From: Ascidia mentula
Taxonomy: Eukaryota > Chordata > Ascidiacea > Phlebobranchia > Ascidiidae
DNA: 64,000 nucleotides
Reading direction: 5' to 3'
NCBI GenBank assembly: GCA_947561715.1
Contig: OX387199.1
Coordinates: forward strand, 20,217,001-20,281,000
The first letter of the stretch is position 1, and each line of letters opens with the position of its first letter. The notes under the pieces were generated by a model. It was not told the DNA's origin. It did no database searches and worked only from the letters and a program-made list of their open reading frames with translations. The position numbers and the translations under genes were made by a program. Of the stretch, positions 14,632 through 52,498 are shown piece after piece.

Positions 14632-14637
14632 TTTATT
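14632..14637 (-). terminator. Poly(A) signal AATAAA overlapping the receptor stop codon
   Basis: On the minus strand the stop TAA is followed directly by ATAAA, so AATAAA shares its first base with the last base of the stop codon. The same arrangement is kept in the other two copies. It implies a very short 3' UTR if this signal is used. Confidence 0.6.
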
Positions 14638-17600
14638 TACAGATCGGTTTCTGCTTCGACCACATGTAAGTTTTCTCGGTTAGCAACCACAACCACATTT
14701 TCCTGTTGCTCTTCCTGTGGTTGACGCCTGAAAATGGCACGTAGGCCATCCCGGACTCTATCATAAAGCAGTTTCGGGGCGTTGGAGTAGATGAGGGGAT
14801 TTAGAGAGCTGTTGATGGGGAGCAGGATAATTGCTGACACAGCGTACATCACTGGAGGCATAGGGACTCCACCGATGTTTACAAATGCCATGATGGAAAT
14901 TGGAACCCAGCAGAGAAAATCGGTAATTATCAGTCGAAGGATTTTCTTTTGCATTTCTGCCGAAACAAACGGCATTAATGGTATAATATGTCAGCAAATA
15001 CGAATGTGCTTACCTTTGTTTTGTGTTGCCTCCCTTCCATCTCGTGGCCTCTCGTTCACTTGCCTGGCACTGGCAGTTGACTTCTTGTAAATCCAAAAGT
15101 ACGTAATTGCAACGAACATGAAGGCCAGGAAGTTTAGAATAATAATAGCGATTGAATATCCCCATGCCTTGTCGTTGGCCGTTACATACAGTTTGCTGAT
15201 GCAAACACTGCTGCTGCTGTAATATCTACACATAAACAATTTTGTGGCGAAAATATTGAAGATTTAGCGCAAATAAAAACGAACCCCAAATATCCAGAAA
15301 TATCAAATAACTCAGTGTAATTGTAATCCTCTAGAATATCCATAAAATCCATCCAGGAATTAACATCATATACTCGCATGAGGGCAGTGTTGAGTACTTG
15401 GCAATCGTTGCTTGTGAAGTTGTGTTGGAAAGTTACAAATCGATCCATGAAGTTATTCATGCCTGTATACGCAAAGCTAGTTTAATTCAAAATTGGTTTC
15501 AACACCTACATCTACGACAATATCTTACTTGAGAAGTCGACTGCAAAATTGTCAAAAAACGGATTCTCATTCATCCAAGCTTTGGTTTCGAACAAATGTT
15601 GTAGTTGAGTTGTGAGTGGAATAAAAGCAATTGTAAACGAGAATGCCCAGGAGAGGATAATGGAAAGGATGACAGTTTTCAATTCCGGTTTCATGGATGC
15701 ATCGAACGGCTGAAACAAAGGGGAACATTCACGTGTTTTCATCAAAAACAATAAGTTTGCAAGCTCGGTGGTTATTTCAAACCGAAAGATGGGGAATGTA
15801 GTTGTCAGCTAGAATACCATCGGACTGGAAATTGTTTTCTCTTTCTCTAACTATAGTTCCCAAATTGGGCAAAACTGCGTCATTTTAATAATATTGGTTT
15901 CACTTTCGTTTCTCATGTCAGGCTTAGAATCAAGCGATAGCTGTGAGAGTGATAATAAATAGGTTATAATAGAAAAAAAAAATAATAGAAAGTTGTCATA
16001 AACTTTTGAAAAGGGACGTCACCTGTTCATCGAAGTTGGCAATAGCTGACTTAACAAAATACAATTGTTTCACTTACGTTTTTCACAGCATACAGTCGGA
16101 ATATGGTCAACAGAACCATTGTAAACACCGATGTTTCGCTTGAAAGCAAAACTAATACCCCCATAGTGGTGCAACTTCCGCTTGATCTCCAAATAAGGTC
16201 ATTGGCACAATAAGATCCGGTGTATCTGACACCAGCGGCTCCCAGCATGATCAGATAAACTCCCATGAATAGATCGGAAACGGATAGATTCAAAACGAGC
16301 AGATGGTTTGTGCGAAATGCAGCAGATTGTGATTCTGTCGTCGCCAACGTCTTGCCTTCCATTACCATGACAACCTCAAAACAAATTGGAGCAATATGTA
16401 AACACGTGTTCTTAATACGCCAAGACAAATCTTAGTTTAATTTACCAAATTTCCGGTAATGGCGAGCATCCCCATTATCCACACAATGGCTCGTAGAAAT
16501 GGGTTCGCAATCAACTCGTATCGTGATGAAAATATGTTTTCGTTGATCACTTTTGTATTTGTTGGGCACTCGTCTGACCAATCAGAGCAGTCGCCGACTC
16601 CATTGAATTTCTATATGGAGTAAATTAAAGAAAACTTTGTAGTTAAGTTGCTCATATTGGCGTCCGTAAACAACACATTGCGAAATTACTGTCTTGCATA
16701 TAATTTGCGAACACCGGAACTATGGAAATTAGACAAAAAATATGTACTGCAAGATGCGTGTGTAGTTTTGTGTACGTGGAAGGCGTGTGAAGCGCTAATT
16801 GGCCAGAAATCTGGCGACAAAAATAAGAATAAATTTGTAAACTGGCAGTTCTCATCTGGTGGCAAACGTTGAGGTGTGCTTGTGTGACTAGGTGTCAAGA
16901 AGATGATTTGTGAAGTGGGTCGTAATTAAATTAATGTTGTTTGGTGTTGGTCCTTTTTACATTGGGTGCTTCTATATAATTTTTTACTTTGACGTCAGTT
17001 TATTTAATTATAAAAGTAGCCACCTGTGTAGTTTTGCTCCCAACATTTGTTTTGACGGTGAGCCGTTAGTGCAGGGTGAACTGAGCGTTTACTATGGTTG
17101 GGGTTGGAGGCCCGCGTTAGTACATGGATCAGATATGGGGTAAACGGTTGGTTTAGATCAGAGATACTCAAATATTTTTAGTGCTAAATTAGAAACCTTA
17201 AGTTCATAAGGCTTTATTTAGACCTATTTTGTGACCGAATCGCACATTTTAATCCCGCGAAGATCAACTTTAAAAGTTTGGCGCCGAAAAAACGGAGAAA
17301 AGGTCTTCCTAAATCGGTTCTAAAACTTCCACACCCGCCATTCCAATAACTTATGTCCTAATTCGGGAACACTGAATTAATTTCGGTCACAACAGTAACA
17401 TGCACGGAATCAAAACATCTTTGCCACAGGACACAAAACTTTAAATATTGTCAACATGTGTTTACCTTCTCCTTCTTGACGAACAATGGATCTTTGTTTT
17501 CGCAATAAAACCTTCCGTCATTTGTGCAGTTTATTTCGTCACTTTGATCATCGCAGTTAATTGTGAGGTCACAAACATCCGATTTGTTGACAGAAATCTG

Positions 17601-20600
17601 TCGCAAAAGTCTGAGAAATACTTAAACCGTCTTTGTGGTTAACTGTGTGCGAAAGATTCAACAAAGGGCATTATGACAAACAATACTGAACAACAGACAC
17701 CGATACCTATTTGCTTTTTATAGTTAAAATACAGCTTCGAAGTGATTTTTTTCCAAACTCTTGTAATTAAGGTCTCAATTTTTTTGTGGTTTTGTTGACA
17801 AGAAATAACTTTACTTTGGCTCCATTTAACGTTGGACAGTAGAATCTTCCTTCCTTTGTGCAGTTTTGTTCTGGATATTCGTCACTTTCATCCTTGCAAT
17901 CGATGAAACCGTCGCATACTTTGGACATAGGAATATTGAGAAGTCCGTCTTTTGTGTCGCAGTGTTTCCGATGTTTGCAAAGTTGAGGATCTTCATCGTG
18001 GTCGAAGAATCGACGTGTGCCAGGAGTGTAGATCCAACCACTGCAATCCCGCCTCCCATCGCACAGTAGTTTGTTGTCGACCAACCTTCCCCCATACCAC
18101 GCACCCCTTTTCTGCATAAAACACATCACGTGGTTCCTGGTATGTTTTTGTGCAAACGATTTGTTGCTCATGCTGGAAGGAATATTTTTGTTATTATTTT
18201 AAACGAATGTTTTTTTAGTTATTGTCAGGCTTGTCAGGATTTCCTGGCTGAATCAGGTAGCGACAGACCAGCAGGGACCGAATTTTATACCTGGGAATGT
18301 GATCACTATGTGATTGTCATGCATTAAGATGTTTATTTTTTTCAAGTTTTGGTGAAGTTTTTGCATCAACCAGGTAAAGAACAAAGAAAATAGCAAAATA
18401 AGCTTGACGAACAAATACAATTTGTGACGAAAGCGAGAATTAACTCTTAAACGTGTGAAATGTGACAACGAAATTGACTTTTCACGCGACTCCTCTTCCA
18501 AACTCTTGTTGGAAATGTTTCGCAGTTTTCTCAGCATTTTACAATATTTTTTCCGCTGTGGTCGCAGTACTTTGAGTATCCACAAAAGCGATATGTCTAC
18601 TGGTATTTTGTGCCAATTGTTAAAAATGTGGGTATTACATATCAGTACTACATGCCTTGTTGGGTGGTTTAGTGCAACCCAAAAACCACATAAATTCCAG
18701 CCATTTCAACGTTGCATAGGCAACGCCTGGGAAACTCGGTACAAACACGAGTTCCAAATGTTAACTACCTTGAAAGTAATTCTTTAGTAATGTAATAGGG
18801 TTTTGCAAATAATTATTATCACGTATAATTGAAGTCTTGCACGGCGAAAGCCATATCCACCCTAGAGAAGCCGAATGCCACGCGCTTTGCAGGAATTAGT
18901 TAAACCCTGTGTTTTGTAGCAACGAAGTAGGTGTAGTGTGGTTATTGTGCATGATGTCACTGAATGTTCCCCATCAGTATATAACAACGTCTGTACAACG
19001 TAATCTTTGCACAAGCACATAAAGTGCATGTGACACGGACATGGCAACTTTGCGTAAAACTACTACAACCAACTTATATCCAAAGTTTTTCGGTTCTACG
19101 TCAACTAAACAATGTAGAAAACTGCACAAAAACTGGCGGCGACCAAAAATCGTAAACCTTTTGCACTGTGGCGAAATTGACATCATACAAGGCACTCGCG
19201 TCGAAAAAATGCATTGTTTAGATACCAGAAGGCGCCTTGTATTGCAGATATCAAATAGTTTCAAACATAGAAGAATCCACAGACTACATTACGTCAAAGG
19301 TCAGAACAGGGTTTTACATCACACAAAAATATGTCACTGTGACGTCACAAACCAAAGGATTATTTGTCCCTAATTATCTAAAGACCAAAGGGTATAGCAG
19401 CAACGACATTACTCTGTACTTCGATGAGACGGGGTTGGTGCGTTTCATTGCTCAGTGACATTACATGACGCCATTTTTTGGTAACTTTAACTTTCCTCTT
19501 TGCATTGACTTTAATTTGAAAATGATTCCAGCATCATTTCTAGTTTTAGTGGTTGATTGTGGCGAATTAAATGAATCATTTATGACTCGAACTCGTAGGC
19601 AACACTACTGCAACGCAAAACGTGGTACTATGACAGAATCACTGTGTTGCATAAACAGCTAATTTCGTCGGTTTTTCCTGGCGGTTTTTGCCAGCCTCAA
19701 AATTCAATAAACCTACTTCTATCTTTTGCTGTGAGTGGACAAAACGACAATGCTAAACTGACGGTTTGTCTCTCTCGTGTTTTCAAAAGTTTATGTATCA
19801 CGTTAACGATCATAAATGCCTATAACAACTAGAACACCCAGTCCCAATAACTGTTTTATTATTACACAACTAAATAAGACATAATAGGTCTAAAAAGCGG
19901 TCATCTGTCTGCAGCTCAAATTAACATCAAAATCCGTTTGTTGCACTTTAAAGTTATGAACATCTTTTAGTTTAATTATTTACATGTTTGATTTTTCCGT
20001 GTCACATGCACTTTAAACTTCTGCGCAGTGTGACGTTCTGTTATCATATAAGAATGAAGCATTTTATTAAAAAATCTTTCCATTGTGCTTTGTGGATTAG
20101 TTCGCTTTGAAACGAGTAAAATTGCAAAACCACAACATTGGTTGTAACTCGCTTCATGTCTCTGAATGTTGGTTTGTTCCACAGTAGTTTAGAAAACTAC
20201 AGAAACCAAACCATTGAGGTAACAAATATTAATGTTTGCCGAAGTAAGTTCGTGTAATAATTACGTTCAACTGCGTAAACATTGTTGCAAACGTTTGTTT
20301 AAACTGGAGTTTGTCCAGCAAGTGAGTAAGTACATTGTGTTGGTAAGAACCTACAAATGTACGTAAACATCTAAACTCTGGTAAACCTATTTCTGACAAA
20401 ACAATAAGTTATGCATTCTCACTTACCCAACACGTCCACCTCCCCTGTATGTAGTTGGTTGTTGCTGTTGTTGAGCAGTCGTTCTTCACTTCGTCATCCA
20501 CACTGAAAATATTTGAATGTTTCGCGTTTATTTATTATAATTAAAAACTCCAATTGAATGCAGATGAGATTTACATGCGACTCCTGTAGTAATTAAATAT

Positions 20601-23600
20601 AAGTTTTTAAAACCCATACACGGGAATTCAGCTCAGAACTGACCCAAAATTACGAAAAGACGCTTAACCTCCAAACACGTACTGCAGGGCAGCTGAGGAA
20701 CAGACAAACATATTGAAACCACTTTAAAACAACTAAAACTGTCAACTTGATATTATGCAAATTTCCTATGGTTGGTCGCCCATTATTGAAACACTGTTGC
20801 GTCACCAAGGTTGCCCGCTTGTAGTGCCCAGATATGCAATGACTTGCATTTAAAGTCTTTTTCGACTACAATACTTTGTATTCAAGGTCTAAAACGACGC
20901 CTTTATGATGTCATGACAGTAAATGAAAGGGTATTTTCCTACAGCGGCGAAATACATCATTTTAAACTACATTATTCATGAGTCATGCCAATGAAAACAA
21001 GTCATGCCAATGAAAACAAGTCATGTAGTATTTACAGACACTTAACACACCTTATACTATTGTAAGTCATAGAATTCTGGTGACGCATTGGATGTCAGTG
21101 GTTTTAATCTTATGGATAAACTAATGCTTTATCACTTACTAATGAAACTTGCCACAATCTTTGGTTTTCCCAGGTTGACAAAAACATTCGTCACTTTTGT
21201 CGGGACAATCGATGACGTCATCACATACACGTGACCTTGAGATGATCATAGGGTCATTTGTACATTGGAAGCATGAACGATGATTAAAGGTCCCCAAACT
21301 TCGAATGTCTCTGCAAATAACACAAGTCAATTCCGTCTTATCTCAACGAAAGGTATTTTCAACCAACCACAACAGTTCACAAATACCTGACATCTCCATT
21401 CTCCGAGGTGTAACACAAATCAGATTTATCATCACAATCTGCAATGCCGTCCCATAGAAACATTTGCGGAAGATTGCAATTCCTGCCATTCCGAACACAT
21501 TTGAATCCATGTCCATTATTCCAGTGTTGGAAAGCTGGACAGTCATTGCAAGTATCGCCATCACAAACAGTCGAACGTTTCCAACAAGCTGAATTTGGAC
21601 ACTGGAAGTGGGAGGGGCAGAGGTACTCACATGGGGAATTCCCCAGACAATGAGCAAAGTCGCAGATTTCATTTTTTGAGTTACAGGAAAAGTTGGCTGC
21701 ATCCAATGTGTTGTAACAGACTCCATTTTTGTCGAAACAATTACAACGTGGTTTTGAACTAAATAAAATCAATAGTTATTTGCATCAACGAAATAAAAGG
21801 TATTTTCATAACTACAAAAATACCCTATATTGTTGTTGCTGCACTGCTGATGGAATTTCCCATTACAACTGGCTTCATCACTCATATCAGGGCAATCTAT
21901 GAAGTCATCACAAACACTTGACATTGAGATGATCATAGGGTCATTTGTACATTGGAAACACAGTCGTTCGTTCAGAGATGAAGAAGTACGAATGTCTCTG
22001 CAATAACAAATTTGTTTATAGATGCCATACTTTGCCCATAAGCAGGCAGTTAAAGCTGTTCATTTTATTATCATAACCATTAATATAAACAACAAAGTTC
22101 ATATGACTAAAATTATATTTAACTCTAAAACGTTTCTTTTTTTTCGTTTTCACTGCAATAGGAAGAATGACGCCAGTAGAAACACCGATCCAATGGCGTT
22201 GAAAGAAAATATGATGTATAGTAAGATAAGGAACACATTGGGAGAGGGAAGTCTGGGGCAGTGCTGGCAAGTATGCACATGCAAAACACAATCAAAAACG
22301 AATTACCTGACATCTCCATTCTCCGAGGTGTAACACAAATCAGATTTATCGTCACAATCAGAAATACCGTCCCATAGAAGCATCTGCGGAAGATTGCAAT
22401 TCCTGCCATTCCGAACACATTTGAATCCATGTCCATTATTCCAGTGTTGGAATGCTGGACAGTCATTGCAAGGATCGCCATCACAAACAGTCGAACGTTT
22501 CCAACAAGATGAATTCAGACACTGGAAGTGGGAGGGGCAGCTGAAGTCACACAGCGTTTTTCCAACACATTGGATGTTTCCTTTACAAAACTCCTCCACT
22601 CTTAGGGCGCATACTATCTTTGAATCGTGGTAGTCAAACTTGTTATCGCAACTGTAACAAAAGTAAAGTATTACGTCCTATAACAAAAGTTTTGAAAGAT
22701 TTGTGTTAGTTAATGTTTAAAAATGAAGAGTCGTCATGGCTGATAATCAGTAAATGTTGTAGGTTTGGTTTTAAATAAACCAGATTAATGCCAATTAGTC
22801 ATGCACGACTGGGTATGCAGATGTGTGAATAACAAAACACAACCTACGACTTCACAATAATTTCGCGTAACATCTGCTGAAAAAAAACTAATAGAAAGCA
22901 AATTGGAGCCAATATTATAAATTGTGTGAGCCATAAACAGTTGACCATTGTTTCGTTCTATAAGGTCTCATCAGTGCTGCGACTGATGCTGACGATCATG
23001 CCGACCATCCGGTCAGGCAAATACTTCTACTTTGTGGTGACGATACAGCCACCGTCATCCGTTGGGCACCAAACTAGGTGCATCCATACGGAGAAAACAA
23101 GGTGGAGTAAACTATTGGAATCAGGTAATTATTCGTGTAACTCTTTCAAGCAATGCTAAATTTATCAAATCTTTCGCGAAGATTTCTATTCCTTCGAAAG
23201 GATTTCGACAAATGTCAACAAACGAAAAGCAGCTGCAAACGAGGCAGCAGACGCAAAACCACCGCAAACCGTAGATAAGAGCAAGACAGACGCCTGACCC
23301 GTTTCTTAACCTGGGTTTAAATCCCGGTGTGGTAAAAAAACGATACCGCCACAACTCCCGTGGTTCCTCCAGAAGCAACCAGTTGCCACAAGTCAACCAT
23401 GTGGGACGACGGCATTACCGAAATGCGGTCCCACAAACGGAACAAAACACTGGCGCCTACTTCCTACATACGTGTGTGCATTTAGGACTTCTGGTCCCAT
23501 CCTCTTAAACTCGGTGCCTCTGCAGGCATTGGTTGTTACGAGATGGTCAACATCCCCCTCTTTGCTGACCTCTCACCTCTCTCTTCTTTTAAAACAATAT

Positions 23601-26214
23601 TACAAACCCCGCATAAACTGGAAACCCCCACAACACCCCAACTATCCGTCATTGAATACAACCTTGAAATTCCCTAAATTACTCGACCTTCGAATTAGAA
23701 ACACGCACTTCTAAATATGAACACCACCTTCTTTGACACCGCTGCACACCTAAACTTTCCCAAACTCCCACAACCTAACACAACCTACGCCACAACCCTT
23801 ACAGCCCTTCTGAACACCTCTTTGTTGCCATTCCATTTCGAAAACTCGTAACTAAATCCGCAGTGACCTTCGCCCTTTGAACAAGACCCCCCAACACCTC
23901 ATCCAATCCCTTAAACAGTCCATAAACTTCAAGTTCGTAATCCAGCGGAACTGGGACAACACCTTTCCTGAAGGCGTCCTGGCCGATGTCAAACATTCTA
24001 TCAATATAAATTAATTAACCTTCTCTCCACCCCATTCTTACATCAACAAAACTTAATCCTGTACCATTACGTAATTTGTTTTTTTTGCTATTCACGTTTA
24101 ACATAGTTTACTTTTTCTGACGTTTTTTTTCTCTTATTCTCTTTTCTCTTCTCCCACATTTTTCTTTTAATACCTTTTTCTCTTTTTTTGCCATCGTTTA
24201 TTTTATTTCTGTTTCCATTGCTTTGTGTAAATTTTTGTGTGATATTCGTTGTGGCGGATTAGTTTTCCAGAATACAAAAATACACAGTGGCCATCTGTCT
24301 GCAGCTCACAGCATTCATATTATTGGCTCCGCTTTGCTTGTGTATAAGATCAGCAACGCCTGATAAAAATCTTTAACATGAAACTTGCTAGTGGGAATAC
24401 ACTAAATGCATTATGATTGTAACGTATTTATACCACCTACAATATCAAAAATATTTTATCTTTCGTTTTGCGCCTAAAATGTTTTTGCTGAGGTAACCTA
24501 AAACTGATAATAAAGGCACATAGTGTTGCTTCTTTTTGTTACCAAACAATTCCACATGTATGGTCTTAATGCCACGTTTTACGTAACAATGCCACGTGTT
24601 GCGTAACATTGCCACGTGTTTGGTAACAATGCTCAATTTAAAAACAATGTGTGAAACAGGCGAACATAAAACTTTTAGTTTTCTTGGTAAATTTTGCAAA
24701 AAGATTGACGATTACGTTTATTTGAAATTTTGTAAAGTCTACGCAAACTGTGATGCGATCGACGTGTTGGCCACCCCTGATATCAACCTCTACTTATCTT
24801 AGATTCACTCTTTGCGCCACCCACTGGCCACTTCTTACCTCAACAACATTATTGTTACATGTGAGTGTTTCGCAATCAATAATTCCCTTCAAATATTGAA
24901 AACACTTCTAAACGCGTGGGGTTTTGAAACTTTCTTATTTGACCCGACTTTATTATAAACTGTTCAAAATTGGTTATTTTAATAGAAGTCAAACCCTGAT
25001 AACATCGTCTATTGGTTGGTCACCACTAATACAACGAATGTAGGGAACATATTTAAGTGCTTTCACCTCATGTAAGGACTGGTTGGGTTTTCAGGATAAG
25101 TGGAAAAATTGGCCGGTTTCTCATCACTTCTGTCCCTGCAACTGCCATATACACCATTACAAAACCACGCAGCCCCCACCTCCCTCCCATCATCGCAAGT
25201 GAAATCTGCACAAAACACATGAACGTAAATCGATTTGAAATCCATTAAAATCTGCAAAACTAACCAATATATTAAATTAATTTAGAGTTTTTGATTTGTG
25301 ACAAAATACTTACTTTCGCCACGTGTATACCGTGCTGAAGCAAATGTGATGAAGGAGAGCAGGATTCCAACTTCCTTCAACCAATACCTGACAAAAACAC
25401 AAAGAGTTTATATCTTGCAATAATATATTTCTCTTATTCAGGGGAATGACGTCATCGTGAATTTTTGTGGAGTTTTACAAACTTTATGTCCAAGGAACAC
25501 TGCAACGTTATTTAAGTTAACATGTAATCTCCAAAATTTCAATGGCTTTTTATGTAAACTGTCGTCACTTTTTTCTGTTTGTTTTTATTCTCATCCGCTT
25601 GTTGCCCAAACGCTTAGAATAAATATTCAGTAGTTTTCGCCAAATCTTGACAGCCCACGGAACCATTCGTGTTTTTTGATAAAGCATATTCAAAGGGGTT
25701 TATTGTCATTTTTGGAAAACAAAAGTTTATTCTCAACACTGGTTCAACCATATGTCTGATATAAATACTTTAAACCACGTTTAGTTTACTCCAGCCGATC
25801 CGTCGGGATTCCATCGCTTACAAAAAGCGGGCAAATATTGTAAGCGACCGTTTATAACCAGATGTCAGATTATGACCAGGCATAATTTTTGTGAGATATT
25901 AAGGAACCAATATTTCGTCCCGGGCTCACAATGCGCCTGGAGAAGCGTGAGACACCGTGTAAGTTCATAACACCTGTTAACTTTACAGACCAGACCGAGT
26001 TTAACCTTACTCTATAAACCGTAGCCCCAACCATGCTAAGACTTGCATAGAAATAACAAATTAAAATTTAAACGTGCACGCTTAGACGGGGTAGATATTT
26101 ATGTTCATTATTATCCCTCGCCAAAAATTATGCATATTTATTGTTTTTCCGACAAAAATGTGGTTATATTTCACCATGTATAGAATTTAAATAGCTCACA
26201 AACCTTGCTCCCAT
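14637..26214 (-). CDS. LDLa-repeat G-protein-coupled receptor, relaxin-receptor/GRL101-like, copy 1
   Basis: Exons (minus strand, in order): 26214-26204, 25387-25314, 25205-25067, 22651-22307, 21997-21824, 21758-21387, 21310-21140, 20502-20427, 18172-17815, 17597-17466, 16610-16446, 16374-16078, 15709-15529, 15462-15285, 15225-15014, 14956-14637. Splice phases agree at every junction except 8/9, where an unseen exon or another donor is needed. The protein starts MGARYW with a signal peptide (LKEVGILLSFITFASA). About eight or nine LDLa-type modules follow (acidic motifs DRSDE, DDKSD, DMSDE, DKSDE, DESDE, DQSDE, DWSDE), which in this family bind calcium and contact ligand. The 7TM domain has GNLVVMV (TM1), LNLSVSDLFMGVY (TM2), TIFRLYAV where DRY would be, CW in TM6, and NSSLNPLIYS (TM7). 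The tail ends ETDL, a class I PDZ ligand. No leucine-rich repeats were seen, unlike RXFP1/2. A plasma-membrane receptor is inferred; the ligand is unknown. Confidence 0.88.
18978..18984 (+). promoter_or_regulatory. TATA box of the intron-nested gene, copy 1
   Basis: TATATAA lies 57 bases before the ATG at 19041, inside receptor intron 8 and on the opposite strand. The box and the 20-40 bases around it are kept in the unit 2 copy at 45163-45169. Confidence 0.5.
19041..19458 (+). pseudogene. Small gene nested antisense in a receptor intron, copy 1, frame-shifted
   Basis: This is the counterpart of the two-exon gene at 45226-45651. Exon 1 would be 19041-19151 (donor ATC|GTAAAC) and exon 2 19248-19458 (acceptor TTGTATTGCAG). 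A TATA box precedes it. Exon 2 keeps the same frame as unit 2 (RTGFYITQKYVTVTSQTKG, then LFVPNYLKTKGY). Exon 1 is two bases shorter than in unit 2, so the spliced frame does not join from this ATG. An unspliced 110-codon frame (19041-19373) is also open, but its basic, His-rich composition looks like an off-frame reading. The family is not recognised. Confidence 0.4.
23060..24293. other. Degraded coding-like relic with C-rich plus strand, origin unknown
   Basis: This region lies in receptor intron 3 and is shared with unit 2 (49250-50515). Plus-strand fragments such as EAADAKPPQTVDKSKTDA and, near the end, FVIQRNWDNTFPEGVLADV followed by a stop look like decayed protein sequence, but they sit in different frames. 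The block from 24038 to 24293, with a long pyrimidine tract, is absent from unit 2. Unit 2 instead has a cysteine-rich stretch (about 49650-49925) that is missing here. A transposon-derived ORF is one possibility, but I see no terminal repeats and cannot name a family. Confidence 0.3.
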
Positions 26215-27124: not shown

Positions 27125-27132
27125 GATTAAAC

Positions 27133-27794: not shown

Positions 27795-27802
27795 GATTAA
27801 AC

Positions 27803-30254: not shown

Positions 30255-30389
30255 TGTAGCGCTCACATTACCGCATTTTAGCGAAGCGGATTAATTGCCT
30301 TTTTCGCCGCGTTTCTCTTTTGCTGCTGTTGCGTAGACTCGTTGATTCTTTCTTAACTTTGCAACAGAATAAAGCTGTGTAACGCCTTA
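30255..30389 (+). repeat. 5' LTR of the gypsy element
   Basis: It starts TGTAGCGCTCACATTACC and contains an AATAAA signal near its end. The stretch directly downstream (GTGGTGACCCCGACGAG) is the likely primer-binding site region. It is nearly identical to the 3' LTR. Confidence 0.93.
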
Positions 30390-34376: not shown

Positions 34377-34380
34377 GCCT

Positions 34381-35199: not shown

Positions 35200-35303
35200 C
35201 TCCCTGGTGGTATGTTAACACTCTCTGGTGGTATGTTAACACTCCCTGGTGGTATGTTAACACTCTCTGGTGGTTTGTTAACACTCTCTGGTGGTTTGTT
35301 AAC
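35200..35303. repeat. 21-bp minisatellite, contracted allele-like array, about 5 copies
   Basis: The same 21-bp repeat and the same flanks as 1164-7829 and 57385-57740, but only about five copies. The last copies carry TTTG in place of TATG and run into the shared flank GTTAACCGGATGTTC. Confidence 0.95.
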
Positions 35304-37951: not shown

Positions 37952-38067
37952 ACAAAATGATGATTTCATTATTTATAAAGGAAGGTGCTGATATGGTGTG
38001 TGTAGTTCATGTTCTATGTGTCATCGGGTAAATCCTCGCGTCGGTCTTGAGGTTTTGCAGCATTAAC

Positions 38068-39761: not shown

Positions 39762-39772
39762 CGACAATTCAA

Positions 39773-40735: not shown

Positions 40736-40741
40736 TTTATT
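40736..40741 (-). terminator. Poly(A) signal overlapping the stop of receptor copy 2
   Basis: The minus strand reads TAAATAAA at the stop codon, exactly as in copies 1 and 3. Confidence 0.6.
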
Positions 40742-43700
40742 TACAGATCGGTTTCTGCTTCAACCACATGTAAGTTTTCTCGGTTAGCAACCACAACCAC
40801 ATTTTCCTGTTGCTCTTTCTGTGGTTGAGGTCTGAAAACGGCACGTAGGCCATCCCGGACTCTATCATAAAGTAGTTTCGGTGCGTTGGAGTAGATGAGG
40901 GGATTTAGAGAGCTGTTGATGGGGAGTAGGATAATTGCTGACACAGCGTACATCACTGGAGGCATAGGGACTCCACCGATGTTTACAAATGCCATGATGG
41001 AAATTGGAACCCAGCAGAGAAAATCGGTAATTATCAGTCGAAGGATTTTCTTTTGCATTTCTGCCGAAACAAACGGCATTAATGGTATAATATGTCAGCA
41101 AATACGAATGTGCTTACCTTTGTTTTGTGTTGCCGCCCTTCCATCTCGTGGCCTCTCGTTCACTTGCCTGGCACTGGCAGTTGACTTCTTGTAAATCCAA
41201 AAGTACGTAATTGCCACGAACATGAAGGCCAGGAAGTTTAGAATAATAATAGCGATTGAATATCCCCATGCCTTGTCGTTGGTCGTTACATACAGTTTGC
41301 TGATGCAAACACTGCTGCTGCTGTAATATCTACACATAAACAATTTTGTGGCGAAAAAATTGAAGATTTTGCGCAAATAAAAACGAACCCCAAATATCCA
41401 GAAATATCAAATAACTCAGTGTAATTGTAATCCTCTAGAATATCCATAAAATCCATCCAGGAATTAACATCATATACTCGCATGAGGGCAGTGTTGAGTA
41501 CTTGGGAATCGTTGCTTGTGAAGTTGTGTTGGAAAGTTACAAATCGATCCATGAAGTTATTCATGCCTGTATACGCAAAGCTAGTTTAATTCAAAATTGG
41601 TTTCAACACCGACATCTACGACAATATCTTACTTGAGAAGTCGACTGCAACATTGTCAAAAAACGGATTCTCATTCATCCAAGCTTTGGTTTCAAACAAA
41701 TGTTGAAGTTGAGTTGTGAGTGGAATAAAAGCAATTGTAAACGAGAATGCCCAGGATAGGATAATGGAAAGGATGACAGTTTTCAATTCCGGTATCATGG
41801 ATGCATCGAACGGCTGAAACAAAGGGGAACATTCACGTGTTTTCATCAAAAACAGTAAGTTTGCAAGCTCTGTGGTTATTGCAAATCGAAAGATGGGGAA
41901 TGTAGTTGTCAGCTAGAATCCCATCGGACTGGAAATTGTTTTCTCTTTCTCTATAGTTCCCAAATTGGGCAAAACTGCGTAATTTTAATAATATTGGTTT
42001 CACTTTCGTTTCTCATGTCAGGCTTTGATTCCAGCGATAGCTGTGAGAGTGATAATAAATAGGTTATAATAGAAAAAAAAATAATAGAAAGTTGTCATAA
42101 ACTTTTGGAAAGGGACGTCACCTGTTCAACGAAGTTGGCAATAGCTGGCTTAACCAAATAAAATTGTTTCACTTACGTTTTTCACAGCATACAGTCGGAA
42201 TATGGTCAACAGAACCATTGTAAACACCGATGTTTCGCTTGAAAGCAAAACCAATACCCCCATAGTGGTGCAACTTCCGCTTGATCTCCAAATAAGGTCA
42301 TTGGCACAATAAGATCCGGTGTATCTGACACCAGCGGCGCCCAGCATGATCAGATAAACTCCCATGAGTAGATCGGAAACGGACAGATTCAAAACGAGCA
42401 GATGGTTTGTGCGAAATGCAGCAGATTGTAATTGTGTCGTCGCCAACGTTTTGCCTTCCATCACCATGACAACCTCAAAACAAATTGGAGCAATATGTAA
42501 ACACGTGTTCTTATTGCGCCTAGACAAAACATAGTTTAATTTACCAAATTTCCGGCAATGGCGAGCATCCCCATTATCCACACAATGGCTCGTAGAAATG
42601 GGTTCGCAATCAACTCGTATCGTGATGAAAATATGTTTTCGTTGATCACTTTTGTATTTGTTGGGCACTCGTCTGACCAATCAGAGCAGTCGCCAACTCC
42701 ATTGAATTTCTATGTGGAGTAAATTAAAGAAAACTTTGTAGTTAAGTTGGTCATATTGGCGTCCGTAAACAACACATTGCGAAATTACTGTCTTGCATAT
42801 AATTTGCGAACATCGAAACTAAGGAAATTTGACAAAAAATATGTACTGCAAGATGCATGTGTAGTTTTGTGTACGTGGAAGGCGTGTGACGCGCTAATTG
42901 GCCAGAAAGCTGGCGACAAAAAAAAAAGAATTGATTTGTAAACTGGCAGTTTTCATCTGGTGGCAAACGTTGAGGTGTGCTTTTGTGATTAGGTGTCAAA
43001 AACATGATTTGTGAAGTGGGTAGTAATTAAATTAATGTTGTTTGGTGTTGGTCCTTTTAACATTGGGTGTTTCTATATAATTTTTTACTTTGACGTCAGT
43101 TTATTTAATTATAAAAGTAGCCACCTGTGTAGTTTGGGTCCCAACATATGTTTTGACGGTTTAGCCGTTAGTGCAGGATGAACTGAGCGTTTACTATGGT
43201 TGGGGTTGGAGGTCCGCGTTAGTACACATTCATAAGGCTTTATTCAGACCTATTTTGTGACCGAATCGCACATTTTAATTCCGCGAAGATCAACTTTAAA
43301 AGTTTGGCGCCAAAAAAAACGGAGAAAAGGTCTTCCTAAATCGGTTCTGAAACTTCCATACCCTCCATCCCAATAACTTTTGTCCTAATTCGGAAACGCT
43401 GAATTAATTTCGGTCACAATAGTAACATGCACGGAATCAAAACATCTTTGCCACAGGACACAAAACTTTAAATATTGTTAACATGTGTTTACCTTCTCCT
43501 TCTTAACGAACAATGGATCTTTGGTTTCGCAATAAAACCTTCCGTCATTTGTGCAGTTTATTTCGTCACTTTCATCATCGCAGTTAATTGTGAGGTCACA
43601 AACATCCGATATGTTGACAGAAATCTGTCGCAAAAGTCTGTGAAATACTTAAACCGTCTTTGTGGTTAACTGTGTGCGAAAGATTCAATAAAGGGCATTA

Positions 43701-46700
43701 TGACAAACAATACTGAATAACAGACACCGATATCTATTTGCCTTTTATACTTAAAATACAGCTTCGAAGTGATTTTTTTCCAAACTCTTGTAATTAAGGT
43801 TTCAATTTTTTTGTGGTTTTGTTGACAACAAATAACTTTACTTTGGCTCCATTTAACGTTGGACAGTAGAATCTTCCTTCCTTTGTGCAGGTTTGTTCTG
43901 GATATTCGTCACTTTCATCCTTGCAATCGATGAAACCATCGCATACTTTGGACATAGGAATATTAAGAAGTCCGTCTTTTGTGTCGCAGTATTTCCGGTG
44001 TTTGCAAAGTTGAGGATTTTCATCGCGGGCGAATAATCGATCGGTGTCAGAATTAAAGATCCGACCACCGCAATCCCGCCTCCCATTGCACAGTAGTTTG
44101 TTTTTGAACCTCCCCCAACTCCACAACACTCGATCCTGTGTAAAACACATCACGTGGTTCCTGGTATGTTTTTGTGCGAACGATTTGTTGCTCATGCTGG
44201 AAGGAATATTTTTGTTATTATTTTAAACGAATCTTTTCTTAGTTATTGTAAGGCTTGTCGGGATTTCCTGGCTGTTACATTAGGTTTTATCATGGGTTTT
44301 GAAGCAGATTTCGCCACAATATCTGTAAATCCGGTGGCGACAGACCAGCAGGGGACGTATACTTTTGTTACAAACTCAATTTGTCAGGTAACAGTGCCCA
44401 TGTGGGACACTTAGAAACGTCGAACGACACATCGACAGCAACAGATGTCATGACAGCAAACTTGTTCGAGACTTTATACATGGGAATGTGATAACTATGT
44501 GATTGTCATGCATTACAAGATGTTTATTTTTTTTGTTAAAGTTTTACATCAACCAGGTAAAAAACAAAGAAAATAGCAAAATAAGCTTGACGAACAAATA
44601 TAATTTGTGACCAAACTCTTAAACGTGTGGAATTAGACGACGAATTTGACTTTTCAGGCGACTCCTCTTCTAAACTCTCGTTGGAAAGGTTTCGCAGTTT
44701 TCTCAGCATTTTACAATATTCTTTCCGCCGTGGTCGCAGTACTTTGAGTATCCACAAAAGGGATATGTCTGCTGTTATTTTTGTGCCAATTGTTAAAAAT
44801 GCGGGTATTACATATCAGTATACTGTACTATAGTACATCCCGTGTTGGGTGGTTTAGTGCAACCCAAATACCACATAAATTCCACGCATTTCAACGTTGC
44901 ACAGGAAACGTCTGGGGAACTCGGTACAAACACGAGTTCCAAATGTTAACGCCCTTGAAGGTATTTCTTTAGTAATGTAATAGGATTTTGTAAATAATTA
45001 TTATCACGTATAATTGAAGTCTTGCACGGCGAAAGCCATATCCACCCTAGAGAAGCCTAATGTCACGCGCTTTGCAGGAATTAGTTAAAGCCTGTGTTTT
45101 GTAGCAACGAAGTAGGTGTAGTGTGGTTATTGTGCATGATGTCACTGAATGTTCGCCACCAGTATATAACAACGTCTGTACAACGTAATCTTTGCACAAG
45201 CACTTAAAATGCATATGACGCGGTCATGGCAACTTTGCGTAAAACTACTACAACCAACTTATATCCAAAGTTTTTCGGTTCTATACGTCAACTAAACAAT
45301 GTAGAAAACTGCACGAAAACTGGAGGCGACCAAAAATCGTAAACCTTTTGCACTGTGGCAAAATTGACATCATACAAGGCACTCGAGTCGAAAAAATGCA
45401 TTGTTTGGATAGGAGAAGGCGCCTTGTATTGCAGATATCAAATAGTTTCAAACATAGGAGAAATTTCAAACATAGGAGAAACAGATTACGTTACGTCAAA
45501 GGTCAGGACAGGGTTTTACATCACACAAAAATATGTCACTGTGACGTCACAAACCAAAGGATTATTTGTCCCTAATTATCTGAAGACCAAAGGGTATAGC
45601 AGCAACGACTACTTCGATGAGACGGGGTTGGTGCGTTTCTTTGCTCAGTGACATTACATGACGCCATTTTTTGGTAACTTTAACTTTCCTCTTTGCATTG
45701 ACTTTAATTTGAAAATGATTCCAGCATCATTTCTAGTTTTAGTGGTTGATTGTGCCGAATTAAATGAATCATTTATGACTCGAACTCGTAGGCAACGCTA
45801 CTGCAACGCAAAACGTGGTATTATGACAGAATCACAGTGTTGCATAATCAGCTAATTTCGTCGGCCTTTCCTGGCGGCTTTTGCCAGCCTCAAATTCATT
45901 TAACCTACTTCTATCTTTTGCTGTGAGTGGACATAACGACAATGCTAAACTGACGGTTTGTCTCTGTCGTGTTTTCAAAAGTTCATGTATCACGTTAACG
46001 ATAATAAATGCCTATAACAACAAGAACACCCAGTCCCAATAACTGTTTTATTATTACACAACTAAATAAGACACAATAGATCTAAATAGCGGCCATCTGT
46101 CTGCAGCTCAAATTAACATCAAAATCCGTTTGTTGCACTTTAAAGTCATGAACATCTCTTAGTTTAATTATTTACATGTTTGATTTTTCTGTGTCACATG
46201 CACTTTAAACTTCTGCGCAGTGTGACGTTCTGTGATCATATAAGAATGAAGCATTTTATTAAAAAATCTTTCCATTTTGCTTTGTGAATTAGTTCGCTTT
46301 GAAACGAACAAGTAAAATTGCAAAACCACAACATTGGTTGTAAATCGCTTCATGTCTCTGATTGTTGGTTTGTTCCACAGTAGTTTAGAAAACAACAGAA
46401 ACCAAACCATTGAGGTAACAAATATTCACGTTTGACGAAGTAAGCCAAAATCTTTGTAAGTTCGTGTAATAATTACGTTCGACTGCGTAAACATTGTTGC
46501 AAACGTTTGTTTAAACTGGAGTTTGTCCAGCAAGTGAGTAAGTACATTGTGTTGGTAAGAACCTACAAATGTACGTAAACATCTAAACCATTTTCATTAA
46601 GTCTGGTAAACTTTTTTTCGACTAAACAATAATTATGTATTCTCACTTACGTAACACCACCAATCACCCTGTATGTAGTTGGTTGTTGTTGTTGTTGTTG

Positions 46701-49700
46701 TTGAGCAGTCGTTCTTCACTTCCTCATCCACACTGAAAATATTTGAATGTTTTGCGTTTATTTCAAATTAAAAAACTTCAATTGAATGCAGATGAGATTT
46801 GCATGCGACTCCTGTAGTAATTAAACAAACGTTTTTAAAACCCATACAAAGGAATTCAGGTCAGAACTGACCCAAAATTACGAAAAGACGCTTAACCTCC
46901 AAACACGTACTGCAGGGCAGCTGAGGAACAGACAAACATATTGAAACCACTTTAACCCAACAACTAAAACTGTCAATTTGATAATATGCAAATTTCCTAT
47001 GGTTGGTCGCCCATTATTGAAACACTGTTGCGTCACCAAGGTTGCCCGCTTGTAGTGCCCAGATATGCGATAACTTGCATTTAAAATCTTTTTCGTCTAC
47101 AATACTTTGTATTCAAGGTCTAAAACGCCTTTATGATGTCATGACAGCAAAGTAATGGGTATTTTCCTACAGCGGCGAAATACATCATTTTAAACTGCAT
47201 TATTCATGAGTCATGCCAATGAAAACAAATCATACCAGTGGAAACAAGTCATGTAGTATTTACAGACACTTAACACACCTTACACTATTCCAAGTCATAG
47301 ATTTCTGGTGACGCATTGGATGTTAGTGGTTTCAATCCAAAGAATAAACTAATGCTTTATCACTTACTAATGAAACTTGCCACAATCTTTGGTTTTCCCA
47401 GGTTGACAAAAACATTCGTCACTTTTATCAGGACAGTCGATGACGTCATCACACACACTTGACCTTGAGATGATCATAGGGTCATTTGTACATTGGAAGC
47501 ATAAACGATGATTAAAGGTCCCCAAACTTCGAATGTCTCTGCAAATGACACAAGTCAATTCCGTCTTATCTCAGCGAAAGGAATTTTCAACCAACCACAA
47601 CAGTTCACAAATACCTGACATCTCCATTCTCCGAGGTGTAACACAAATCAGATTTATCATCACAATCTGCAATGCCGTCCCACAGAAACATCTGCGGAAG
47701 ATTGCAATTCCTGCCATTCCGAACACATTTGAATCCATGTCCATTATTCCAGTGTTTGAAAGCTGGACAGTCATTGCAAGGATCGCCATCACAAACAGTC
47801 GAACGTTTCCAACAAGATGAATTTGGACACTGGAAGTGGGAGGGGCAGAGGTACTCACATGGGGAATTCCCCTGACAATGAGCGAGCTTGTCGCAGATTT
47901 CATTTTTTGAGTTACAGGAAAAGTTGTCTGGATAAATTTTGTTGTAACAGACTCCATTATTGTCGAAACAATTACAACGTGGTTTTGAACTAAATAAAAT
48001 TAATAGTTATTTGCATCAACGAAATAAAAGGTATTTTCATAACTACAAAATTACCCTATATTGTTGTTGCTACACTGCTGATGGAATTTCCCATTACAAC
48101 TGGCTTCATCACTCATATCAGGGCAATCTATGACGTCATCACAAACACTTGACCTTGAGATGATCATAGGGTCATTTGTACATTGGAAACACAAATGTTC
48201 GTTCAGAGATGAAGAAGTACGAATATCTCTGCAATAACAAATTTGTTTATAGATGCCATACTTTGCCCATAAGCAGGCAGTTATAGTCGTTCATTTTATT
48301 ATTTATAACCATTAATATAAACAGCAAAGCTCATATGACTAAAATTATATTTTACTTTAAAACGTTTCTTTTTTTTCGACGCCAGTAGAAAACACCGATC
48401 CAATGGCGTTAAAAGAAAATATGATATATAGTAAGATAAGGAACACATTGGGAGAGGGAAGTCTGGGGCAGTGCTGGCAAGTACGCATATGCAAAACACA
48501 ATAAAAAACGAAATACCTGACATCTCCATTCTCCGAGGTGTAACACAAATCAGATTTATCGTCACAATCGGCAATGTCGTCCCATAAAAACATTTGCGGA
48601 AGATTGCAATTCGTGCCATTCCGAACACATTTGAATCCATGTCCATTATTCCAGTGTTGGAAAGCTGGACAGTCATTGCAAGGATCGCCATCACAAACAG
48701 TCGAACGTTTCCAACAAGATGAATTCGGACACTGGAAGTGGGAAGGGCATCCACCGTCACAAGGTGTTTTTCCAACACATTGGATTATTCCTTTGCAAAA
48801 CTCTTCCACTCTTAGGGCGCATACTTTCTTTGAATTGCCGTGGTCAAACTTGTTATCGCAACTGCAACAAAAGTAATCTATTACGTCACACATCAATAGT
48901 TTCGCAAGATATTGTGTTTGTTAATGTTAAACATGAAGAGTCGTCATGGCTTTTTTTTAAATAAACCAGATTAACGCCAACTTGTCATGCACGATTGTGT
49001 ATGCAGATGTGTGAATAACAAAACACAACCTACGACTTCACAATAATTTTGCGTAACATCTGCTGAAAAATAACTAATAGAAAGCATATTGGAGCCAATA
49101 TTATAAATCCTATGAGCTGTAAACAGTTGACCATTGATTCGTACTATAAGGTCTCCACAGTGCAGCTTGGTGCGACTGATGCTGACGATCATGCCGACCA
49201 TCCGGTCAGGCAAAGACTTCCACTTTGTGGTGACGATACAGTCACCGTCATCCGTTGGGCACCAAACTAGGTGCATCCATACGGAGAACAAGGTGGAGTA
49301 AACTATTGGAATCAGGTAATTATTCGTGTAAATCTGTCAAGCAATGCCAAATTTATCAAATCTTTCGCGAAGATTTCTATTCCTTCGAAAGGATTTCGAC
49401 AAATGTCAATGAACGAAAAGCAGCTGCAAACGAGGCATCAGACGCAAAAACCACCGCAAACCGTAGATAAGAGCAAGACAGACGCCCGACTCGTATCTTT
49501 ACCTGGGTTGAAATCCCGGTGTGGTAAAAAAACGATACCGTGACAACTCCCGTGGTTCCTACAGAAGCACCCACGCAACCAGTTGTCACAAGTCAACTAT
49601 GCGGGACGACGGCATTACCGAAATGCGGTCCCACAAACGGAAGAAAACATCTTACGGCCGCACTACATACGCAACATTAGGCAAGCATCTTAAATGTCTA

Positions 49701-52498
49701 TGTGGCAAAGTACATTCAAAATACCGCTGCTCCGAATGAAGTCCATGCCGTTGTAACAACACAAACAGCCAGTGTTTCTTGATTAGTTGTACATGTGGCA
49801 CATGTTATAATCTAATGCCCGGAGAGAAGGTTATGTATAACTATAAGGCAATAATACCAAATCACTTCAACACAAACTGTTTTTAGCAATCCAATATCTT
49901 GTACTTTTGTTATTGTTTTTGACAATGGCGCCTACTTCGTACATACGTGTGTGCATGTAGGACTTCCGGTCCCATCTTCTCAAACTCTGCGCCTCTGCAG
50001 AGCTTGGTTGTTACGAGATGGTCAACATCTCCCTCTTTGCTGACCTCTCACTTCCCCTTTCCTTTAAAACAATATTTCAAACCCCGCATACTGGAATCCC
50101 CCACAACACCCCAACTTTCCCTCATTGAATATAACCTTGAAATTCCCTAAATTACTCGACCTTCGAATTAGAAACACGCACTTATTAATATGAACACCTT
50201 CTACTTTGACACCGCAGCACACCTAAACTTTTTCAAATTCTCACAACCTAACACACACTACGCCACAACCCTTACAGACCTTCTGAACACCTCTACGTTG
50301 CCATACCATTTGAAAAACCCGTAACTGAATCCGCAGTGACCCTTGCCCTTCGAACAACATCCCCCAACACCTCATCAAGTCCCTCAAACAGTCCATAAAC
50401 TTTAAGTTTGTAATCCAGCGGAACAGGGACAACACCTTTCCTGAGGGCGTCCTGGCCGATGTCAAACATTCTATAAATATAAATTAATCAACCTTCTCTC
50501 CACCCCATTCTTGGCCATCTGTCTGCAGCTCACAGCATTCATATTATTGGCTCCACTTTGCTTGTGTATAAGATAAGCAACGCCTGCTAAAAATCTTTAA
50601 CATGACACTTGCTAGTGGGAATACACTTTTCGTGCGCTATAATCGTCAATTCCTCAACACAAAGTTTTAGAAGTAATTGCATTATGATTGTAACGTATTT
50701 ATACCACCTACAATATCAAAAATATTTTAACTTTTGTTCTGCGCCAAACTGTTTTACTGAGGAAACCTGATACTGCCAATAAAGGAACAGAGTGTTGCTT
50801 CTTTGTATTACCGGACAATTCCACATGTTTGGTCATAATGCCACGTTTTACGTAACAATGCCACGTGTTGCGCAACATTGCCACGTGTTTGGTAACAATG
50901 CTCAATTTACAAACAATGTGTTGAACAGGCGAACATGAAACTTTTGGTTTTCTCGGTAAAATATGAAAAAAGATTGACGATTACGTTCATTTAAAATTTT
51001 GTAAAGTCAACGCAAACTGTGATGCGGTCGACGTGTTGGCCACCCCTGATATAAACCTTTACTTATCTTAGATTCACTCTTTGCGCCACCCACTGGCCAC
51101 TTCTTACCTCAACAACATTATTGTTACATGTGAGTGTTTCGCAATCAATAATTCCCATGAAATATTAAAGAAAAAACACTTCTAAACGCGTGGGGTTATG
51201 AAACTTTCTTATTTGACCCGACTTTATTATAAACTGTTCAAAATTCGTTATTTTAATAGAAATCAAACCCTGATAACATCGTCTATTGGTTGATCAACAC
51301 TAATACAACGAATGTAGAGAACATATTTAAGTGTTTTCACCTCATGTAAGGTCTGATGAGGTTTACAGGATAAGTGGAAAAATTGACTGGTTTCTCATCA
51401 CTTCCGTCCCTGCAATGGGGACCACGAGGATGTTCATCACAAAACGACCAAGCCTTCACCTTCCTCCCATCATCACAAGTGAACTCTGCACAAAACACAT
51501 GAACGTAAATCGATTTGATATCCATCATAATCTGTAAAACTAACCAATATTTTAAATTAATTTAGAGTTTATGATTTGTAACAAAATACTTACTTTCGCC
51601 ATATTCATACCGTGCTGCAGCAATTGTGATGAAGGAGAGCAGGATTCCAACCACCTTCAACCAATACCTGATAAAACACAAAGATGTAATATATCTTGCA
51701 ATGATATATTTTTCTAACTCAGGGAATTGACGTCATCATGGATTTTAGTGAAGTTTTACAAACATTAAATCCAAGGAACACTGCAATATTATTTAAGTTA
51801 ACTGGTAATCTCCAAAATTTCATTGGATTTTAAAATAAACTGTCGTCACTTTTTTCTGTTTGTTTTTATTCTCATCCGCTTGTTGCTCAAACGCTTAGAA
51901 TAAATATTCAGTAGTTTTCGCCAAATCTCGACAGCTCACGGAACCATTCATATTTTTTGATCAAGCTTATTCAAAGGCTTTTATCGTCATTGTTTGGCAA
52001 ACAAAAGTTTAATCTTCACACTGGTTCAACCATATGTCTGATTTAAATACTTTAAACCACGTTTAGTTTAATCCAGCCGATCCGTCGGGATTCCATCGCT
52101 TACAAAAGGCCGGCACATATTGTAAGCGACCGTTTATAACCAGCTGTCAGATTATGTACAGGCACAATTTTTGTGCGATATTAAGGAACCAAAATTTCGT
52201 CCCGGGCTCACAATGCGCCTGGAGAAGCGTGAGACACCGTGTAAGTTAATAACACCTGTTAACTAGATCACAGACCAGACCGAGTTTAACCTCACTCTAT
52301 AGTCTGTAGCCCCAACCATGCTAAGATTTGCATAGAAATAACAAATTAAAATTTAAACGTCCACGCTTAGACATGGTAGATATTTATGTTCATTATTATC
52401 CCGCGCCAAAAATATGCCTATTTATTGTTTTTCCGACAAAAATGTGGTTATATTTCACCATGTTAAGAATTTAAATAGCTCACAAACCTTGCTCCCAT
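40741..52498 (-). CDS. LDLa-repeat G-protein-coupled receptor, relaxin-receptor/GRL101-like, copy 2
   Basis: Exons (minus strand, in order): 52498-52488, 51667-51594, 51485-51341, 48861-48517, 48228-48055, 47989-47615, 47538-47368, 46732-46651, 44196-43842, 43624-43493, 42709-42545, 42473-42177, 41813-41633, 41566-41389, 41329-41118, 41060-40741. All are open and in phase, with the same unresolved 8/9 junction as copy 1. Lengths differ from copy 1 only by multiples of three, in exon 3 (+6), exon 6 (+3), exon 8 (+6, extra Thr codons) and exon 9 (-3). The 7TM domain is almost unchanged (LNLSVSDLLMGVY; NSSLNPLIYS; tail ETDL). The first LDLa module and the start of exon 9 are strongly changed (for example FCDEHPRGPHCRDGSDE against FCNGVYGSCRDRSDE). 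It is probably functional; the ligand is unknown. Confidence 0.88.
45163..45169 (+). promoter_or_regulatory. TATA box of the intron-nested gene, copy 2
   Basis: TATATAA lies 57 bases before the ATG at 45226, with a conserved surrounding sequence shared with copy 1. Confidence 0.5.
45226..45651 (+). CDS. Small two-exon gene nested antisense in a receptor intron, copy 2
   Basis: Exon 1 (45226-45338) ends at ATC|GTAAAC and exon 2 (45435-45651) begins after TTGTATTGCAG. Joined, they give 330 bases, a 109-residue frame from ATG to TGA. A TATA box lies 57 bases upstream. The protein begins MATLRKTTTTNLYPKFFG, has an NCT glycosylation-type site, and a beta-rich, Tyr/Thr-rich second half (RTGFYITQKYVTVTSQTKG). 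No signal peptide or known domain was recognised. An 18-bp in-frame tandem duplication (SNIGEI repeated) is specific to this copy. An upstream ATG in another frame exists, and the two-base difference from copy 1 makes the true start uncertain. Confidence 0.45.
49250..50515. other. Degraded coding-like relic, unit 2 copy, with cysteine-rich stretch
   Basis: This is the counterpart of 23060-24293 in receptor intron 3. Between about 49650 and 49925 it has extra sequence that reads, across a stop, HLKCLCGKVHSKYRCSE and then CRCNNTNSQC..CTCGTC, a pattern that could be a metal-binding cysteine cluster. The downstream part again ends in a frame resembling TFPEGVLADVKH. No terminal repeats were found. 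A transposon-derived protein is suspected but not shown. Confidence 0.3.

Follow-up and report, generated by a model that had tools for sequence, protein, structure and literature searches.

How do two neighboring receptor genes come to share a signaling domain that hardly differs between them, when short segments of their extracellular parts differ heavily? The question arises from a 64,000-nucleotide stretch of chromosome 3 of Ascidia mentula (the window), in which a first-pass annotation had recognized tandem receptors and proposed diversifying selection on ligand recognition in a locally duplicating family. That interpretation, taken as a whole, is partly supported. The span assigned to the pair, 14637..52498, runs from the stop codon of copy 1 (14637-14639) to the first base of the copy 2 ATG (52498). 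Both genes are on the minus strand, copy 1 at 14637..26214 (ATG 26214-26212, stop TAA 14639-14637) and copy 2 at 40741..52498 (ATG 52498-52496, stop TAA 40743-40741), and the units that carry them are spaced ~26 kb. Each gene has 16 exons, modeled in copy 2 with AG/GT borders, and encodes a putative signal peptide, ~10 LDLa-type modules, and a relaxin-receptor-like 7TM domain.

The spliced copy 2 protein has 1051 residues. Its putative signal peptide (51594..52498) is encoded by exons 1 (52498-52488) and 2 (51667-51594), and its first LDLa-like module is encoded by exon 3 (51341..51485). Exons 4 (48861-48517) and 5 (48228-48055) form cysteine-rich module pair A (48055..48861), which resembles module pair B (47368..47989), formed by exons 6 (47989-47615) and 7 (47538-47368). 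Exon 8 (46651..46732) holds a threonine run of variable length followed by a variable end, GDWWCY (46651-46668). Exon 10 (43493..43624) encodes a constant LDLa module, and exons 11 to 16 (40741..42709) encode the last LDLa piece and the near-constant 7TM domain, which has a long second extracellular loop.

The start of exon 9 had to be corrected. The residues CFTQ and CMQ, previously taken as its beginning, are intronic, and the acceptor AG follows directly after them. The exon thus begins with DRVLWSWG in copy 2 (43842..44135) and with KRGAWYGG in copy 1 (17815..18111, minus strand; KRGAWYGGRLVDNKLLC...) and is linked to exon 8 by a phase-0 junction. In several copies the supposed leader is interrupted by a stop while the exon past the acceptor is open. 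A pattern search found the phase-0 acceptor in 12 of 20 long copies (and none in the other 8) and in 43 of 50 copies of a wider set. Because the earlier exon-9 frame did not join exon 8, an additional exon lying between the two was considered; it was rejected, since the acceptor immediately preceding the variable stretch gives phase 0.

The kind of receptor is already known. The copy 2 protein matches the Pfam families PF00057 (LDLa; E 9.8e-18, with 10 stretches passing E 10) and PF00001 (rhodopsin-type 7TM; E 1.3e-17), and no leucine-rich repeat family is among its three Pfam matches at E values up to 10. The best solved-structure match of its 7TM part is RXFP1 (relaxin receptor 1; E 7.7e-25). 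This combination of an INSL3/relaxin-receptor-related 7TM domain with N-terminal LDL-A repeats, and without leucine-rich repeats, is that of the LDLRR-GPCRs of Ciona intestinalis, which passages of PMC2396169 describe as a lineage-specific expansion of rhodopsin-type receptors with LDL-A repeats that are single or occur 2 to 10 in tandem. The Lymnaea snail GRL101 and GRL101-like receptors also carry LDLa repeats on a relaxin-receptor-like 7TM domain. However, leucine-rich repeats between LDLa and 7TM parts, the mark of GRL101 and of the RXFP receptors (LGR type C), were not found in the A. mentula receptors; GRL101 is described as having such repeats besides its LDLa repeats (PMC2396169), and RXFP1 is described with leucine-rich repeats and a single LDLa module, whereas the A. 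mentula receptors have many.

The suggestion that the locus represents an undescribed system therefore needs to be narrowed, because Ciona has receptors of this family, described as LDLRR-GPCRs in PMC2396169; what is new is the scale and the hypervariable loops. The Ciona family is given 14 confirmed members in the same source, compared with ~110 close copies in A. mentula. The passages of PMC2396169 on the Ciona family mention no hypervariable loops, and the term “positive selection” is absent from the paper. Among the matches listed, no report of hypervariable LDLa GPCRs was found in the open-access literature.

The proposal of a locally duplicating family holds well beyond the window. We searched one assembled haplotype of A. 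mentula (195.8 Mb in 79 contigs; the kaAscMent1.1 assembly is given as 197.0 Mb in 95 scaffolds in the part of PMC11109543 consulted). An exon-3 probe gave 109 genomic matches to part of the exon, with 114/114 candidates scored; counted by eye, 97 of these matches fall within chromosome 3 (14.6-23.1 Mb) or chromosome 7 (15.8-19.5 Mb). For exon 12, ~110 matches of at least 85% identity over nearly the whole exon were counted by eye among the 150 scored of 338 candidates. More distant groups lie on chromosome 2 (14.1-14.7 Mb) and chromosome 3 (21.67-22.13 Mb). The A. mentula family thus comprises ~110 copies, most of them in two chromosomal regions.

Most of these copies are open in exon 3 where it could be read. 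None of the 109 exon-3 matches contains a stop codon within its matched portion, which is a weaker criterion than an open exon. At the 102 of the 109 places where exon 3 was read whole, 93 sequences are open and in phase, with AG and GT splice sites present; the other nine (L115, L128, L135, L141, L147, L148, L156, L157, and L158, L numbers being our labels for copies) fail this strict check, some perhaps only through a pattern misfit at the splice sites. Twenty copies were retrieved as 10-kb stretches and make up, with the two window copies, a set of 22 long copies. An automatic parse found all of exons 3 to 12 in 8 of the 22, which undercounts whole genes because in at least some cases (such as L009/L023 and L020/L103, judged by position) exon 3 sits upstream, beyond the stretch. 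Where exons 13 and 14 are whole in the 20 retrieved stretches and the two window copies, they have 94-100% DNA identity to copy 2, one exon 13 being cut off and several exons only partly covered. L081 apparently lacks some sequence toward the end of exon 13.

Variation is concentrated in portions of exons 3, 4, 6, 8, and 9. The four contrasts in residues that had been quoted between copies 1 and 2 are all present in the DNA, and the quoted variable segments are real, although two more had been missed, at the end of exon 8 and, as a second stretch, in exon 9 (9b). In exon 3, the first hypervariable stretch of copy 2 (KVKAWSFCDEHPRGPHCR; 51409..51462) takes in the residues preceding the second cysteine and the loop to the following cysteine, and its counterpart in copy 1 is EVGAAWFCNGVYGSCR (25135..25182). 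Exon 9 of copy 2 holds stretch 9a (DRVLWSWGRFK; 44103..44135), which has 5-13 aa across 42 copies, and stretch 9b (GGRIFNSDTDRLFARDEN; 44016..44069). Shorter variable segments of copy 2 are the start of exon 4 (FDHGNSKK; 48825..48848) and a stretch in exon 6 (NKIYPDNFS; 47917..47943), all of these features being on the minus strand. Copies 1 and 2 differ at 18/42 nucleotides in the exon-3 stretch, 18/33 in 9a, 14/54 in 9b, 6/27 in exon 6, and 5/24 at the start of exon 4, compared with 8/297 in 7TM exon 12 and 2/165 in exon 11. To call the introns of the two copies nearly identical is a little generous, as 500-bp windows that include introns are 90-97% identical. A single converted tract as the source of the variation was rejected, because the variable stretches are spread over several exons.

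Across the family, almost every copy has its own version of these stretches. Among the 93 open exon-3 sequences there are 82 different versions of the variable string. The loop enclosed by the final two cysteines has 5-11 residues and takes 68 distinct forms in 91 of these sequences. In a looser set of 99, which includes sequences failing the strict open-exon check, column entropy is close to zero for the cysteines and for the F preceding the second cysteine, reaches 2.7-3.0 bits across most of the loop, and amounts to 3.1 and 3.3 bits for two residues a short way upstream of the F. There are 37 distinct forms of 9a and 36 of 9b in 42 exon-9 sequences, a set obtained from 50 by leaving out 7 that were unparsed (L013, L014, L015, L017, L019, L047, and L057) and 1 with a stop (L055). 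By eye, L019 and L047 are apparently open, and L057 is frameshifted. Exon 8 terminates in a variable xWxCx motif that abuts the intron preceding exon 9, and this end and 9a therefore form one variable region split by that intron. Assembly error is an unlikely source of the variation, because the same pattern is found at ~100 loci and the quality value given for the assembly is QV 64.9 (in the part of PMC11109543 consulted).

An exon-3 profile aligns to the LDLa modules of VLDLR (E 2.1e-9) and places the variable stretch around a Trp-x-Cys and the loop after it. The face of an LDLa module that matches this stretch is the one that holds calcium and ligands. Unlike in the modules of VLDLR/LDLR, the third cysteine (GQC) is replaced in A. 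mentula exon 3 (GRK), and the exon-3 module may therefore be incomplete. Exon 9 modeled by itself with AlphaFold2 reached a pLDDT of 43, too low to be informative. The alignment to VLDLR brings in the possibility that pathogens or toxins dock on the LDLa modules and that the loops change to evade binding, not to recognize anything: the VLDLR modules with which the variable stretch aligns top the match list, and several of the top-matching structure entries are, we presume, viral complexes. Escape alone would nevertheless leave ~100 mostly open copies with length-changing loops unexplained, and we regard it as very unlikely.

The contrast between variable ectodomain and near-constant 7TM domain recurs in copies beyond the window. 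When copies 1 and 2 are excluded, the variable stretches differ at p = 0.14-0.39 and the constant coding parts at 0.03-0.08, except for one exon-4 stretch at 0.13. For the intron flanks adjoining exons 3 and 9 (at most 120 nt each), the differences are 0.128, 0.072, 0.099, and 0.144, compared with 0.25-0.39 for the variable stretches there. Flanks of the remaining exons examined differ by 0.08-0.19, with the exception of the 3' flank of exon 4 (0.314), probably because some copies lack exons 5 and 6. In 500-nt intron stretches of 12 long copies, mean differences are 0.158, 0.249, 0.198, and 0.141 and medians at the same scale are 0.108, 0.163, 0.126, and 0.112; the means are pulled above the medians by pairs whose differences exceed 35% of sites, a level that unrelated stretches would show. 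The exon-3 and exon-9 stretches clearly exceed their introns, but the exon-4 stretch (0.24) is not above every intron stretch.

The variable segments were initially picked by eye and then tested on other copies. Pairwise pN/pS was 0.310/0.149 for the exon-3 stretch, 0.426/0.252 for 9a, 0.270/0.171 for 9b, 0.285/0.212 for the end of exon 8, 0.255/0.172 for the start of exon 4, and 0.189/0.025 for the exon-6 stretch, compared with 0.019/0.067 for exon 12 and 0.018/0.063 for exon 11. By codon resampling, pN exceeded pS in exons 3 and 6 (P < 0.001), 9a (P = 0.015), and 9b (P = 0.044), and the excess was not significant for exon 4 (P = 0.17) or exon 8 (P = 0.28). Codon models run with copies 1 and 2 excluded favored an omega above 1 for exon 3 (3.24; 2dlnL 24.0), 9b (2.27; 14.1), and 9a (1.97; 5.9), in each case over an omega of 1, and gave 0.24 for 7TM exon 12 (2dlnL 28.8) and 0.24-0.88 for the constant parts. 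Omega was also above 1 for the exon-4 and exon-6 stretches, but an omega of 1 was not rejected (2dlnL 2.2 and 2.5), and the exon-8 value was at the program's bound. For exon 3, pN/pS and the codon models drew on 40 sequences (L034 and L080 were unparsed), from which copies 1 and 2 and duplicates were removed for the codon models (n = 36).

An alignment-free comparison of disjoint pairs of the same length, using 88 exon-3 strings from the looser set, agreed at a 30% divergence limit, with dN/dS of 1.66 for exon 3 (P = 0.007), 2.28 for 9b (P = 0.001), 2.75 for 9a (P = 0.047), and 0.23 for exon 12. At a 15% limit, exon 3 remained significant (P = 0.027), 9a was borderline (P = 0.053), and 9b was not significant (P = 0.4). 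The share of gaps that are multiples of three carries no weight: it was 92% for exon 8, 68% for exon 9, and 63% for exon 3, and although the flanking introns of exons 8 and 9 had 8-26%, those of exon 3 had 79% and 46%.

Replacements thus outnumber silent changes in exons 3 and 9, and the 7TM part is under purifying selection. The comparison of dN/dS with introns, set beforehand as the check on the first-pass annotation, gave replacement rates in exons 3 and 9 above both silent and neighboring-intron divergence. Per-segment dN/dS and intron controls over ~100 copies therefore bear out diversifying selection for these two exons, whereas exons 4 and 6 by themselves are not significant in the codon models. 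That mutation-prone stretches merely drift in relaxed or dying copies is highly improbable. The stretches of exons 3, 8, and 9a are indeed G-rich (40-55% G), 9a has slightly elevated silent divergence (0.25), and nine of the 102 exon-3 sequences fail the open-exon check; however, the codon tests oppose drift for exon 3 and also, under the 30% limit, for exon 9, the other 93 exon-3 sequences are open with splice sites, the cysteines are kept, and the 7TM domain is constrained.

The variable stretches may move between copies. In 17 copies, 9 of which were paired by distance and strand only, distances in the exon-3 stretch had no detectable linkage with those in 9a or 9b (r = −0.11 and 0.02, at low power), which is consistent with reshuffling. 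The constant parts of exons 3 and 9 are likewise uncorrelated in these copies (r = −0.07), and the test, given its low power, therefore does not distinguish reshuffling from lost signal. Individual pairs show mosaic likeness: exon 9 is nearly identical in copy 1 and L041, and the exon 3 assigned to L041 is unrelated; copy 2 and L003 are 96-99% alike across the exons 3-5 part and 91-97% beyond it. Among 12 long copies, most parts are weakly correlated, but the block of exons 4-7 correlates with the exon 9-12 part at 0.91, and exchange is therefore not uniform. In 13 copies, the exon-4 and exon-6 tails of the same gene differ by 0.046, tails from different genes differ by 0.047 (exon 4) and 0.037 (exon 6), and the difference across the two exons is 0.047; being as different within genes as between them, the tails show that sequence has been exchanged across exon positions.

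Many paralogues, a constant frame, and diversified stretches, all found in this family, are the features of a hypervariable recognition repertoire, and a constant 7TM domain with varied LDLa loops fits a family that would give one signal to different partners. Ligand recognition, and the choice among immune, chemosensory, and self-recognition roles that had been offered for the locus, are what we infer from the sequence. The reading that we favor, with an evenly balanced chance of being right, is that the locus provides haemocytes with a germline repertoire of recognition receptors, for which non-self recognition would be the likeliest setting. The haemocyte setting is favored because blood tissue and haemocytes are given as the source of most EST matches of the Ciona LDLRR-GPCR models (in passages of PMC2396169). 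Tandem duplication would supply receptor copies, conversion and unequal crossing-over would homogenize the signaling frame and reshuffle the loops, and selection would retain new loop variants, such that each receptor would use its LDLa surfaces to bind a different macromolecular ligand, with one G-protein signal common to all. A bolder version, which we put forward tentatively and which probably goes too far, has ~100 GPCRs on blood cells forming a combinatorial germline repertoire, in which hypervariable, tryptophan-rich LDLa loops, each reshuffled independently, would cap a constant signaling domain as an antibody-like display wired directly to G-protein signaling.

The main rival to a haemocyte repertoire is a chemosensory one, in which copies would be tuned to different waterborne peptide or protein cues in sensory cells of the siphon or the larval papilla. 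Large tandem GPCR families, of which this is one, are typical of chemoreceptors, and the vertebrate olfactory and vomeronasal receptors are large, fast-evolving families too; in those, however, the 7TM domain is not the near-constant part that it is in A. mentula, where variation lies in the LDLa ectodomain. LDLa modules usually bind proteins and not small odorants, a habit that speaks against tuning to odors. Starfish sensory tentacles are described as overexpressing a GRL101-like receptor that carries six LDLa motifs (a passage of PMC6267866), but the predominance of blood and haemocyte ESTs among the Ciona relatives (PMC2396169) points away from sensory cells, and we consider a chemosensory role rather unlikely. 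Self or gamete recognition, in which allelic and paralogous variation would mark individuals in fertilization or haemocyte allorecognition, is quite unlikely: ascidians are described as having highly variable loci in their systems of self-sterility and allorecognition, but more than 100 loci would be an unusual design for a self-marker. The described systems, moreover, use other proteins.

For a repertoire of haemocyte recognition receptors, the central observation is that a signaling body that barely changes is joined to short loops that are different in almost every copy, which is the pattern expected under selection for many partners. GPCRs are not usually regarded as hypervariable recognition receptors that vary only in an LDLa ectodomain. 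Regardless of function, the family offers a natural case of frame homogenization alongside loop diversification, with ~100 copies that can be compared. Should the ligands prove to be molecules of microbes or of self, the sister group of the vertebrates would possess a large recognition repertoire, and the question of the diversified receptors of invertebrate chordates would become directly testable.

Among the 150 scored exon 12 matches (338 candidates), two more distant receptor groups were found, one on chromosome 2 at 14.1-14.7 Mb, with exon 12 identities of ~69-78%, and one on chromosome 3 at 21.67-22.13 Mb, with identities of ~59-65%. The second extracellular loop of the 7TM domain is very long (41389-41813 in copy 2), with ~84 residues that do not align to relaxin receptor 1, and is near-constant across the receptor copies compared. 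In the ectodomain, exons 4-5 and 6-7 (47368-48861 in copy 2) look like internal duplicates of each other; a single exon pair, rather than two, is seen in four other genomic copies (L007, L012, L013, and L017).

Between the two genes in the window lies a retroelement-like insertion (30255-34377) with direct repeats of 136 bp, 99% alike, at its ends; comparison of units within the window revealed no counterpart at the corresponding site near 56010. An insertion with inverted arms (56685-57224; arms of 110 bp, 97% complementary) contains a 57-bp tandem and likewise has no counterpart in the corresponding unit near 1010 within the window. A palindromic pair with 62-bp arms, 95% complementary, lies at 29553-29695. 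Three arrays of a 21-bp minisatellite of the AACACTCCCTGGTGGTATGTT type, at 1160-7829 (~317 copies), 35199-35303 (~5 copies), and 57381-57740 (~17 copies), occupy an equivalent position in consecutive units of the window.

In the receptor copies read, G makes up 40-55% of the variable parts of exons 3 and 8 and of the first variable stretch of exon 9 (9a), and tryptophan is abundant in all three. These G- and tryptophan-rich stretches could possibly be a substrate for slippage or faster mutation.
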